Source: Verrucomicrobiales bacterium
GTDB lineage: Bacteria > Verrucomicrobiota > Verrucomicrobiia > Verrucomicrobiales > Akkermansiaceae
Length of the DNA stretch: 25,899 nucleotides
Assembly: GCA_003527555.1 (NCBI GenBank)
Contig: DPWT01000135.1
Location: 1-25,899, forward strand
Reading direction: 5' to 3'
Each line of letters opens with the position of its first letter. The stretch's first letter is position 1. This document shows positions 8,829 through 12,893 of the stretch, one piece after another. The notes beneath the pieces are model-generated. The model searched no databases. It saw only the letters and a program-made list of their open reading frames with translations, and was not told the origin of the DNA. The position numbers and the translations under genes are program-made.

Positions 8829-11219
8829 ATGGCCAATCAGCAACCACCAGAACCTCCATCATCACCTAGGAGCCGCAAAGATCAAGGAAACGCACCGAAG
8901 AGCGGTGGCCTCAACTGGCGTGTTATCATCTTGATGACAATAGCTATTGGTATTCTCTTCATTGCCTGGAATGCTGGTGGTTATGGTAAGGCCAAGAGGC
9001 TTACATATAACGAGTTTCGGGATTGGGTTGATTCCGGGAAAATCATCTCTGATCAAGATCTTCCTGAAAAAGGCGAAGTGATACCCAACAAGGAGCACAA
9101 GCTGACAAAAAGTGGTGAATCCAATGCTGTGCCCAAAATTACAGGTTTCTACTACAAGAATGATCCATGGGATAACGACACGAACAAGGCGGTGCAAAAG
9201 GAATTTCGTATTCCCATCAATGCTCAGTTGAATCTGGACGAATTGCAGGCAATTCAATCTCGTCATGCGATTCCACTGCGGATTGTAGAGGAAATGCCTG
9301 CAGTAGACGATCGTGAGTTGCTATCACTCCTTGATCTGCGACGTATTTTAGCACGCCGCTCGGTGATCAAGAATGACCCGAATAGTGCGTTTGAGATCGT
9401 TTCATTAAACGGCTCAGATGATAAATACATACTGGGCAAACGCTATGTATTTCCTGCCAGAATGGGAGCCAAAGATCTCAGTGAATTAGCCAAGTTTGAA
9501 ATTGATCTCAATCTGTTTGAGATTCCCGAATCTGATCGTCAGTTCGTCAATGCAATTGCGCCCTACAAGCAAGAAAGTGGTACGATGAGTTTTCTACTGG
9601 TGCAGCTGTTGCCAATCATGCTGATCATTCTTGTGATATTTTTCTTGTTTCGCCATCAGATGAAGTCTGCGGGTAAAGGTGCTATGAGTTTTGGTAAATC
9701 CAAGGCACGCCTCTTGACCATGGATGGTAACAAAGTGACGTTCAACGATGTGGCAGGCATTGAGGAGGCAAAAGATGAGCTAGTGGAGGTTGTCGAGTAT
9801 CTTCGCGACCCCAAGAAATTTCAAAAACTGGGAGGTAACTTACCCAAAGGTTTGCTGATGGTTGGTCCTCCCGGAACTGGTAAGACGCTACTTGCTCGTG
9901 CCATTGCAGGCGAGGCGGATGTCCCATTTTTCTCTATTTCAGGATCTGACTTCGTCGAAATGTTCGTTGGAGTTGGTGCCAGCCGTGTGCGTGATATGTT
10001 CGAACAAGGACAGAAAAATTCTCCTTGTTTGATATTTATCGACGAGATTGATGCCGTGGGTCGTCACCGTGGGCATGGTATGGGAGGAGGCCACGATGAA
10101 CGTGAGCAGACGCTGAATGCGCTTCTTGTCGAGATGGATGGGTTTGATACTCGTACTGGTGTGATTATTATTGCGGCAACAAATAGACCTGATGTTCTTG
10201 ACCCTGCGTTGTTGCGCCCTGGACGATTTGACCGTCAGGTAACTGTCGGGCTACCTGACGTCAATGGGCGTGAGCAAATCCTTGGCGTTCATGTTAAAAA
10301 AATCAAAATGGATCCTGATACTGATCTTAATGTCATTGCTCGTGGCACTCCTGGATTTTCTGGTGCGGAACTTGCCAATTTAATTAATGAGGCAGCACTG
10401 CTTGCGGCTCGTAAAAATCTCAAAGCGGTGACTCTCGCCGAGATGGAGGAGGCGCGGGATAAGGTTCGCTGGGGACGAGAGCGGCGCAGTATGGCGCTCA
10501 GCGAGAAAGAGAAAGAAAACACGGCTTACCATGAGGCGGGCCATGCAATACTCAATGTCCTGTTGGATCACACTGATCCGCTTCACAAGGTTACTATTAT
10601 CCCGCGTGGGCCATCACTGGGATCGACAATGTTTTTGCCTGAGGAGGATAAGTTTACCTATCGGCAAAAGGAGTTGGTGGATCAGCTCGTTGTGGCTATG
10701 GGTGGTCGCGTGGCCGAGGAAATCACTTTTGGGAATGTGACTAACGGAGCTGTTGGTGACATTCGGATGGCTACAAATATCGCACGCAAGATGGTTTGTG
10801 AATGGGGAATGAGTGAAAAACTTGGTATGGTAGAATATGGGGAGAATCGTGGTGAGGTATTTGTTGCCCGTGATATGGGGTCAAACAAGACTTACTCTGA
10901 GGAGACCTCACGCCAGATCGATGCCGAGATCAAGAGCCTTATTGATGGTGCATACGGCCTAGCTAAGGAGATGCTCATCAAGCATAACGACAAGCTTAAG
11001 CTTCTTGCTGATGCTTTGTTAGAGTTCGAAACTCTCGATGCATCTCAGGTAGAAGATTTGCTCGAGCATGGTGAGATGAAAAATCCACCGACTCCGCCCT
11101 CGGACAAGGTGATTCCGGGTAACCAAGCTGGCGAGGGTGTTAGCAAGTCATCAGTAGCTGCCGTTGATGGTGAAGATGATGAGCCACTTGCTGGTGATGC
11201 AGTGGGTGCACCAGCGTAA
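8829..11219 (+). CDS. ftsH: ATP-dependent zinc metalloprotease FtsH
   Basis: This 796-residue inner-membrane AAA+ protease degrades misassembled membrane proteins and selected cytosolic regulators. Membrane helices lie at about 35-50 and 253-276. The AAA domain follows, with Walker A GPPGTGKT at 346-353, Walker [13 protein letters not shown], the pore motif [12 protein letters not shown] and second region of homology RPGRFDRQV. The zinc protease has HEAGH at 568-572 and a downstream third-ligand region ([14 protein letters not shown]). The periplasmic segment between the helices is about 200 residues, against roughly 70 in E. coli FtsH. The C-terminal tail (about 750-796) is Pro/Gly/Asp-rich and probably disordered. 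It is divergent from the ABC gene and appears monocistronic. The start ATG follows an AT-rich leader without a Shine-Dalgarno. Confidence 0.97.
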
Positions 11220-11245
11220 GGTGTATAATCTCATAAATGCGTTGG

Positions 11246-11280
11246 AAAAAAAGAACGCCGACAGCACGGGGCTGCGGCGT
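11246..11280 (-). terminator. Intrinsic terminator of the minus-strand HMA/flavoprotein operon
   Basis: Read on the minus strand, a 10-bp GC-rich stem (ACGCCG/CGGCGT plus CAGC/GCTG, one bulged base) with a five-base loop occupies 11255-11280. A run of seven Ts (11252-11246) follows, with two further bases between stem and run. This is a textbook Rho-independent terminator for minus-strand transcription and lies 24 nt after the stop of the HMA gene. On the plus strand the stem is not followed by a T-run, so it would terminate ftsH only weakly. Confidence 0.85.
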
Positions 11281-11303
11281 ATGTAGATTTGCTAGTTATG
11301 TGT

Positions 11304-11627
11304 TCAGCTGGCTGAAGCCCCAAAACCTGCTTTTTTAACTGCTTTAATTAGGTCTTCGATTTTAACTTCGTCGGCCGCCGTGACGACAGCCTTATCAGGC
11401 ATACTTACCATTGCATTGTGAACGCCTTTGACTTGTTTGAGTGCGAACCGCACTTTATTACCACATGATGCGTCTCAGGTCATACCTGTGATTTTCAAGC
11501 TGATTGTCTTGGTTTGGGCTTTTTGAGATTTTACTTCTATGTTTGCTGGAGCGTGGTCAGCGATTACGGCACCTGGAGACAAGCATGCGATGGCGCACAG
11601 GCTGATTAGTTGAATGGTTTTGTTCAT
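11304..11627 (-). CDS. Putative selenoprotein: secreted heavy-metal-associated (HMA) domain protein with in-frame UGA
   Basis: From the ATG at 11627 the frame encodes 107 residues if the TGA at 11477-11475 is read as selenocysteine (residue 51). Residues 1-23 look like a signal peptide (cleavage near AVIA/DH). The rest is an HMA/CopZ/MerP-type ferredoxin fold: ISLKITGMT-U-DASCGNKV, then FALKQVKGVHNAMVSMPDK, VVTAADEV and IEDLIKAVKKAGFG. The UGA replaces the first Cys of the GMTC metal motif, giving UxxxC; CxxxC versions of this motif occur in some Bacteroidetes HMA proteins (from memory). A SECIS-like hairpin follows the UGA by 25 nt. The gene starts 33 nt after the flavoprotein stop and ends just before a strong terminator. 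A single-base change or sequencing error (TGC/TGT to TGA) in an ordinary CxxxC protein is the main alternative. The final TGA at 11306-11304 is a real stop. Confidence 0.7.
11440..11454 (-). promoter_or_regulatory. Candidate bacterial SECIS hairpin downstream of the in-frame UGA
   Basis: On the minus strand AGTGC-GGTTC-GCACT forms a perfect 5-bp stem with a five-base loop that begins GG. Exactly 25 nt separate the UGA (11477-11475) from the loop. Bacterial SECIS elements lie inside the coding region just after the UGA, with the apical loop roughly 16-37 nt away and a G among its first two bases. The E. coli fdhF loop is GGUCU, so GGUUC is close. No extended lower stem is obvious. SelB recognition is inferred, not shown. 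Confidence 0.6.
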
Positions 11628-11660
11628 GATTTTGTTTCTGGTTGAGTTGTCGTGTGTGAT

Positions 11661-12893
11661 TTACAAATTATCTGCAATGGCAATGCCTGCAAGTCGTCCA
11701 CAAGTCCAAGCATTCTGAAAGTTAAACCCGCCTGTGATGCCATCAATATCTAGTATTTCCCCTGCAAAATAAAGTCCGGACACCAGTTTGCTTTCCATGG
11801 TTTTAAGGTTTATTTCCTTCAGGTTAACGCCGCCGCAGGTGACAAATTCATCTTTATTTGTGCTTTTTCCAGAGACTTGAAACCTACCACATGTGAGCTC
11901 CTTGGTCAGGTATTGAGTGGTTTCCTTGTTAAGTTGTGACCAAGTGCAATCATTGGCAACCAGAGCTGCGTTGCATAGCCGTTGCCAAAGTCGTTTGGGT
12001 AAATTGTCGAATGGTGCTTGGCTGCGCACTTGTCGTTTGCCCCAACGCTCGCGTGTGTTGGTTATTGTGGCGGCTGCGTCTTGACCCGGAATCCAGTTTA
12101 CTGTGATTATGAAATGATAGTTTTTTTCGTTCAATTCACGTGCTCCCCATGCGGATAGCTTAAGAATGCCTGGGCCGCTGAAGCCATGATGAGTGATGAG
12201 TAGCGGTCCTTTGGCGGATAACTGCATGCCCTCGACGGTGACTTCAGAATCTGGAACAGCAATGCCTTGAAGCCCCTCGGAGCGTGGGTCAGTGATATTG
12301 AAGGCGAACAAAGATGGGACGTCAGCGGTCAAATTGTGCCCGAGTGATTTTGCGAGTTTAGCGCTTGTGGCGAGACGAGTGCCGCCTGTGGCTAGTAGAA
12401 CAGAGGAGGTTTGTAATTCTTTCCCTGAGACTGTGGTAATGGTAAATAAATTTTCTGCTGCATGATGCGTGATTGAGTTTACGGCACTTGAAGTATGGAT
12501 TTGCACACCTGCATCTGCAGCGGCCGTCAGTAGGCAGTTTATAATTGTCTGTGAATCGTCTGTGATGGGAAACATTCTGCCATCCCTCTCTGTTTTCAGC
12601 TCAACACCATGTTGCTGAAACCATTCTACGGTATCAGTTGCCCCCCATCGATGGAGTGGTCCGATCAGAGATTTGCTACCTCGTGGGTAGTTATTGGAAA
12701 GCTCTCTGGCATCGGAACAGTCGTGAGTGACGTTACAACGCCCACCACCGGAAATTCTTACTTTACTCAAGACGTGAGCTGTTTTTTCTAAAATGAGTAC
12801 ACGGATCCCGGGCTGTGACTCAGCAGCAGTGATGGCAGTGAAAAATCCTGCTGCCCCACCGCCAATGACGACCAAATCCCAGTCCGCGTTCAT
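11661..12893 (-). CDS. BaiN/HI0933 (YhiN)-family FAD-dependent oxidoreductase
   Basis: This 410-residue flavoprotein has an N-terminal FAD-binding Rossmann motif (DLVVIGGGAAGFF, about 6-18) and the family motif ISGGGRCNVTH near 48-58. It also has a GFSGPGIL segment in the inserted domain, and the C-terminal GLYFAGEILDIDGITGGFNF plus AWTCGRLAG that closes the FAD site. Length agrees with the family (about 390-420). Members are aminoacetone/BaiN-like reductases of mostly unknown substrate; BaiN itself acts in gut bile-acid dehydroxylation, which need not apply here. The start ATG overlaps the stop of the preceding gene by one base (TAATG), implying translational coupling. The HMA selenoprotein candidate follows after 33 nt. 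A functional link between the two is possible but unproven. Confidence 0.88.
   Translation of the reverse strand: MNADWDLVVIGGGAAGFFTAITAAESQPGIRVLILEKTAHVLSKVRISGGGRCNVTHDCSDARELSNNYPRGSKSLIGPLHRWGATDTVEWFQQHGVELKTERDGRMFPITDDSQTIINCLLTAAADAGVQIHTSSAVNSITHHAAENLFTITTVSGKELQTSSVLLATGGTRLATSAKLAKSLGHNLTADVPSLFAFNITDPRSEGLQGIAVPDSEVTVEGMQLSAKGPLLITHHGFSGPGILKLSAWGARELNEKNYHFIITVNWIPGQDAAATITNTRERWGKRQVRSQAPFDNLPKRLWQRLCNAALVANDCTWSQLNKETTQYLTKELTCGRFQVSGKSTNKDEFVTCGGVNLKEINLKTMESKLVSGLYFAGEILDIDGITGGFNFQNAWTCGRLAGIAIADNL

Follow-up and report, generated by a model that had tools for sequence, protein, structure and literature searches.

In a 25,899-nt stretch of contig DPWT01000135.1 (assembly GCA_003527555.1) from a Verrucomicrobiales bacterium of the Akkermansiaceae, hereafter the window, we analysed a gene at 11304..11627 on the minus strand whose reading frame contains one internal TGA. 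The locus as a whole is best explained, with good confidence, as one gene for an exported HMA-domain selenoprotein, for which soft-metal scavenging is the most likely role. Selenocysteine (Sec) is almost certainly inserted at residue 51, and the product, judging from its N-terminus, is very likely exported. The features of the gene are as follows (genomes, contigs, loci and proteins carry G, C, L and P numbers).

11304..11627, minus strand: HMA selenoprotein gene, 107 residues, predicted Sec at residue 51, TGA stop at the end.
11559..11627, minus strand: signal-peptide-like segment MNKTIQLISLCAIACLSPGAVIA, cleavage guessed by eye near residue 23.
11310..11516, minus strand: HMA domain, beta-alpha-beta-beta-alpha-beta, by Pfam score and fold comparison.
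11475..11477, minus strand: in-frame TGA read as Sec, at the first metal-binding Cys position of the HMA domain (GMT-U-DAS-C).
11463..11465, minus strand: TGT codon of Cys55, the partner of Sec51 (U-xxx-C), invariant in alignments A1 and A4.
11440..11454, minus strand: hairpin of the bacterial selenocysteine insertion sequence (bSECIS) type, AGUGCG-GUU-CGCACU, apical loop beginning 26 nt past the UGA.
11246..11280, minus strand: hairpin and U tract resembling a Rho-independent terminator, downstream of the HMA gene, −16 kcal/mol, z −4.6.

Translation of the minus strand from 11627 to 11304 gave an ATG start, a signal-peptide-like N-terminus and an HMA domain with one TGA inside it, at codon 51; a further 56 sense codons lead to the terminal TGA. 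With the internal TGA taken as Cys, residues 44-102 matched the Pfam HMA family (PF00403) at 43.1 bits against a cut-off of 24.8. A six-frame PF00403 search of the same genome, a draft of 2.2 Mb in 287 contigs that is 76.6% complete, found a single match at E <= 0.001; it was this locus, and it ran through the TGA (39.3 bits). These results agreed with the initial annotation, which had proposed a hidden HMA gene with one TGA at 11477-11475, on the first Cys of a GMTC motif. That annotation had also described 56 HMA-like codons past the TGA, a stop and a terminator, and all of these were seen: the downstream hairpin consists of 10 pairs with a bulge and is followed by TCTTTTTTT on the same strand as the gene, although it was missing from the results of a simple terminator scan. 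The product exceeded the PF00403 gathering cut-off and had the beta-alpha-beta-beta-alpha-beta fold, and the best fold matches of its HMA domain were metal carriers. The CxxC ligand spacing typical of HMA was not found; the family has UxxxC, as first read in the window, in 50 of 51 domains and UxxC in one. The locus product is an HMA fold with an altered ligand motif.

The UGA was conserved in related genomes. Among 58 genomes, own included, 16 contained a match to the product. The best match in 12 of these had one TGA, always in the same position; the 12 are the own genome, nine others of the genus, G014 from another genus and G053 from another family. Thirteen other genomes of the genus were checked at this codon: nine had the UGA gene, with TGA and not TGC or TGT, and four gave no match. 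A profile search of the order matched 136 of 386 genomes, with many ordinary stop-free HMA domains and many containing a UGA. The motif scan of the opened loci yielded 50 distinct UxxxC domains in at least 40 genomes, after two of 52 hits were dropped as chance (L101, minus strand; L150, minus strand at 10049). Genomes G004, G251, G277 and G361, which have identical cores, were counted among the 40 genomes and not as distinct domains; L161, whose frame breaks after about 35 codons, was kept among the 50 for hairpin counts and excluded from the tree. The carrier genomes belong to family f1 (g1, 10; g2, 1; g9, 18; g10, 6; g16, 1) and family f2 (g17, 3; g51, 1). All 50 domains read G(M/L)x-U-xxx-C, and identity to the window's domain went down to 30% among 34 aligned. 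A 51st domain, L162:5380 on the minus strand (G343:C23), reads GMT-U-AA-C; it fails the UxxxC pattern and was counted apart. Chance does not account for the locus, since 50 distinct homologous domains share its UGA, the Cys at +4 and the hairpin.

Beyond the order, 73 of 387 genomes drawn evenly from the phylum had a match at E <= 1e-8, and among the matches listed only that of the own genome had a TGA inside. Twenty-nine of these loci were opened (L190-L218); CxxC was present in 27, CxxxC in L191 and no motif in L214. No other known carrier genome was among the phylum-sample matches, indicating that the carrier genera were hardly sampled; the distribution may reach past the order. The placement in Akkermansiaceae and Verrucomicrobiales was taken from database labels, the protein-database names of P0010, P0015 and P0101 pointing to both. 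In a DNA search of genome contigs, a motif scan of the best 80 of 196 relatives showed no HMA motif with either spacing, UxxxC or CxxxC. Eleven of these 80 did contain CxxxC, but only as one recurring string located elsewhere in the loci.

The hairpin search was restricted to the published bSECIS geometry, so that finding a hairpin was partly by construction. The test proper lies in its position (25-26 nt in 50/50), in energies far below a synonymous null and in columns that are frozen or covarying. The loop of the best hairpin started 26 nt past the UGA in 46 domains and 25 nt past it in four, the latter being the same hairpin with the closing G-U open. Nearly all 50 domains kept GUGCR/YGCRC as the stem and G(U/G)Y as the loop. 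Mean hairpin energy was −7.2 kcal/mol, compared with −1.9 kcal/mol for a null of 40 synonymous recodings per gene built from codons used within the family, and by simple-stem score 16 of 50 hairpins were at or below −7.5 kcal/mol, the published bSECIS limit, vs 3.75% of the null. Codon choice pointed the same way. The stem Val codon was GTG in 48/48 domains (in the rest of these genes, 63 of 364 Val codons), and the paired Ala codon was GCA in 48/48 (84 of 309 elsewhere); the Fisher p values of 5e-32 for Val and 3e-24 for Ala both ignore shared descent. In the remaining two domains Val was changed to Ala (GCG), and the opposite base had changed too (T-A to C-G). Across the seven stem pairs, 96.4% of cells paired, vs 91.8% after shuffling, and 16 cells were changed on both sides, vs 3.7 after shuffling; none of 500 shuffles was as high in either measure. 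Two of the five covariation measures were weaker (pairs with change on both sides, 39/500 shuffles; further pair types, 9/500). In the UxxC member L162 the hairpin loop lay at 23 nt, exactly one codon nearer the UGA, a natural joint shift of motif and SECIS. An Rfam scan of 11200-11700 found no family reaching E 5.

The own genome contains the machinery for Sec decoding. The tRNA-Sec model RF01852 scored 53.2 bits (cut-off 47), and ARAGORN also called a tRNA-SeC, which adds weight because RF01852 exceeded its cut-off in 5 of 14 control genomes. SelA (414.1 bits, cut-off 22.8), SelB (322.6, cut-off 242.25) and SelD (363.8, cut-off 125, with one in-frame TGA inside) were all present, and in the controls each was above cut-off in 2 of 14. 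The selenoprotein reading that the initial annotation had put forward was therefore supported, as tRNA-Sec, SelA, SelB and SelD were all found. SelA matched in 10 of 12 carriers vs 21 of 46 other genomes. SelB was above cut-off in 16 of 17 carriers checked, including both that gave no SelA match, and the same search found it in 4 of 5 genomes without a known UGA member. The own-genome SelD (L117 around 1531, G000:C64) is itself a selenoprotein candidate, reading SCAGU, with a hairpin loop that starts 33 nt past its UGA.

Cys homologues were found in protein databases. A single-sequence search with P0001 returned nothing at E <= 1e-3 (four candidates). Profile A5, searched over 5.8 billion proteins, gave 119 hits, of which 28 were inspected; six read C-xxx-C, with Sec replaced by Cys (P0003, P0004, P0005, its shorter form P0014, P0006 and P0011). 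Thus residue 51, where an in-frame UGA or a Cys in homologues had been expected, was UGA in 50 domains and Cys in distant homologues. Judged by eye, P0003-P0006 and P0011 had a signal- or lipobox-like N-terminus. In a tree of 73 columns with many open forks, in which P0003 and P0006 stood on long branches, P0004 and P0005 stood beside the Sec protein L154 (G286) within the Sec clade (support 100/98); on this placement the pair is a recent Sec/Cys exchange. The SECIS-like motif was absent from both Cys homologues examined as DNA (L116, which is P0003, and L191, which is P0006). Other hairpins exist in them, including one in L116 of −7.4 kcal/mol at 24 nt with a different sequence. The two halves of the own gene stand in public data as separate proteins: P0105 (50 aa, 6 contigs) stops at the UGA, and P0016 (49 aa, 7 contigs) begins at an internal start. 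The metagenomic predictions P0002 and P0008 show W in place of Sec, which probably reflects gene callers applying a UGA=Trp code.

The family takes several forms: N-termini that by eye resemble a signal peptide or a lipobox, domains in tandem, and a protein with four predicted Sec. In genus g10, copies of the UGA HMA gene are adjacent duplicates in L152 (G348) and L155 (G326) and fused in L153 (G286). The G053 protein L166 (G053:C31), which starts MKYLAILLS and is also seen as L112/L115, has two HMA domains in tandem and four in-frame UGAs. A Lys/Ser-rich linker contains two of these UGAs, and each of the four is accompanied by a SECIS-like hairpin with a GUC loop at 23-26 nt.

We propose that SelB, with GTP and Sec-tRNA, would bind the hairpin just past the UGA and insert selenocysteine at residue 51; if insertion failed, translation would stop and leave a 50-residue stub. 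The mechanism is taken from established bacterial Sec decoding; its parts were observed, and insertion itself is what we infer. Once exported, the HMA fold would present Sec51 as a selenolate and Cys55 as a thiolate, spaced one residue wider than CxxC. It may act much as MerP or CopZ does, though on its own, scavenging soft metal ions such as Cu(I), Hg(II) or Ag(I) in the periplasm or at the surface. The signal- or lipobox-like N-termini, the tandem domains and the four-UGA G053 protein make the capture of soft metals outside the cytoplasm, by a protein acting alone, our best guess, and we consider this role, rather than another, fairly probable. We lean slightly towards a broader view, in which Verrucomicrobiales, mainly Akkermansiaceae, would have exported HMA selenoproteins forming a large family as yet absent from catalogues, whose UxxxC selenolate-thiolate pair captures soft metals outside the cytoplasm. 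If true, these proteins would use selenium to defend against metals or to trap them, and annotation would overlook the system as its genes are cut at the UGA. The family would be new among selenoproteins, with Sec taking the position of a metal ligand in a classic metallochaperone fold, and it points to a gene set truncated at UGA in public predictions. The natural Sec/Cys pairs would make selenium's gain at a metal site (affinity, selectivity, redox) testable in a small soluble domain, and the one-codon shift in the UxxC member offers a natural test of SECIS position tied to the reading frame vs to the UGA.

One further feature lies upstream of the HMA gene.

11661..12893, minus strand: TIGR00275 (aminoacetone oxidase family) flavoprotein, same-strand neighbour, 33 nt from the HMA gene.

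The flavoprotein context noted in the initial annotation was seen in the window and in part of its genus: of the 10 genus g1 loci opened, 7 had a relative (by clustering) upstream in the same orientation, and the contig ended there in two of the other three. It did not extend further, being present in 0 of 31 loci outside this genus. The putative link between flavoprotein and HMA gene is synteny in part of the genus only. The neighbours scanned in other clades were LeuB, adenylosuccinate lyase and one unassigned protein. MerT matched in 0 of 24 carriers but also in 0 of 14 controls, so that this search proves nothing. The own genome's single heavy-metal P-type ATPase match was at G000:C226:703-2388 on the minus strand, and the selenoprotein was the only HMA domain found in the genome search.

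Several observations weigh against a soft-metal-scavenging selenoprotein. The own simple stem, at −6.3 kcal/mol, is weaker than the bSECIS limit of −7.5 kcal/mol; 3 of 40 own-gene recodings (0.07; 0.00 to 0.28 across the family) fold equally well; and the 51 nt from the UGA, folded in isolation, prefer another structure (z −0.48). The 71 nt around the hairpin do fold into it (z −1.69). Because single-gene hairpin energies are less decisive, it is the family as a whole that carries the argument. Two of 12 carriers (G005 and G010, draft genomes) had no SelA match, and SelB was not above cut-off in 1 of 17 (G259, a draft of 93% completeness). Clustering of 41 loci (the window and L149-L188) gave no constant neighbour, the largest cluster comprising 8 of 41, and no metal gene was among the four recurrent neighbours scanned. 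A heavy-metal P-type ATPase was above cut-off in 11 of 24 carriers and without a match in 9 of 24; thus, a fixed ATPase partnership was not supported.

The main rival to metal capture is redox chemistry. In this case the same selenoprotein would use U-xxx-C as a redox centre, a Sec51/Cys55 selenenylsulfide cycle reducing periplasmic disulfides, peroxides or metal ions. Uncharacterised selenoproteins are mostly expected to have redox roles according to a 2026 review (PMC13188914), and the Sec/Cys pair with its invariant Cys, as well as the nine carriers without an ATPase match, are consistent with such a role. However, HMA is not a thioredoxin-like fold, and metal carriers were its best fold matches. 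No conserved reductase was seen among the four recurrent neighbours that were scanned, save the TIGR00275 flavoprotein of some g1 loci, and the tandem domains and four-Sec form also argue against redox. We regard it as possible but unlikely. A selenium store or carrier, in which the exported protein would hold selenium, or selenium with metal, like a sponge, is improbable: the linker UGAs of the G053 protein and its hairpins at 23-26 nt, together with other two-domain forms (L153, P0002), would suit it, but the locus product and most members inspected have one Sec, at the conserved ligand position.

Two readings without selenium are extremely improbable, and both were dropped. A sequencing or assembly error, a decaying gene or two short genes would account for P0105 and P0016 being listed separately, but a UGA kept in at least 40 genomes, a purifying pattern past it and the covarying hairpin refute this in practice. 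Decoding of the UGA as Trp, or by a near-cognate tRNA, would match the W printed in P0002 and P0008, which is attributed to UGA=Trp gene callers; against it, the HMA gene itself terminates at UGA, the Sec machinery and SECIS hairpins are present, and standard-code homologues have Cys at this position.

Known systems resemble the locus product in part. CopZ is cytosolic, has CxxC and is not known to contain Sec; MerP has Cys-x-x-Cys and belongs to the mer operon. The CopZ family metallochaperones (NF047957 and others; PF00403) share the HMA domain with a G-M-x-C motif, but the locus product scored 53.5 bits against a cut-off of 85, and for MerP (TIGR02052; PDB 1osd, 1afi) it scored 43.3 against a curated cut-off of 92.55. 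NF041115 (UxxU_metal_bind), a selenoprotein model, matches the HMA part; it has two Sec in UxxU, whereas the locus product has one Sec, UxxxC and a signal peptide, and P0001 scored 49.3 against a cut-off of 95. NF045683 (MerT_CopZ_Se, a MerT/CopZ fusion-like heavy metal transport selenoprotein) has an HMA-like part in common; judged by its name it is a MerT-like fusion, whereas the locus product has 107 residues and reached 37.2 of 375 bits. NF041115 goes together with the 'Metal-binding protein (putative mercuric reductase)' in the table of the review, listed there with two Sec in UxxU; NF045683 is missing from that table, which is thus incomplete (PMC13188914). Table 2 of the Global Ocean Sampling (GOS) selenoproteome gives a 'Mercuric transport protein MerP' selenoprotein with 2 sequences and 0 Cys homologues; it provides no motif or domain, so the comparison is by name only, and the GOS protein could belong to the family of the locus product (PMC2398784). 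The precedent of Sec in mercury-transport HMA proteins, mentioned in the initial annotation, has support in this entry (PMC2398784) and in NF041115 and NF045683, both matching below cut-off. The family itself was not found in print within the open-licence literature, and subscription papers may describe it. Close counterparts are also the Cys homologues P0003-P0006 and P0011 (no name given), which have the same CxxxC spacing with Cys in place of Sec. Adjoining the CxxxC homologue in L191, at L191:1768-2520 on the plus strand, is a gene whose protein begins with a degenerate HMA-like stretch, HGCNCKDLAKIY, and has a second one recognised by eye.
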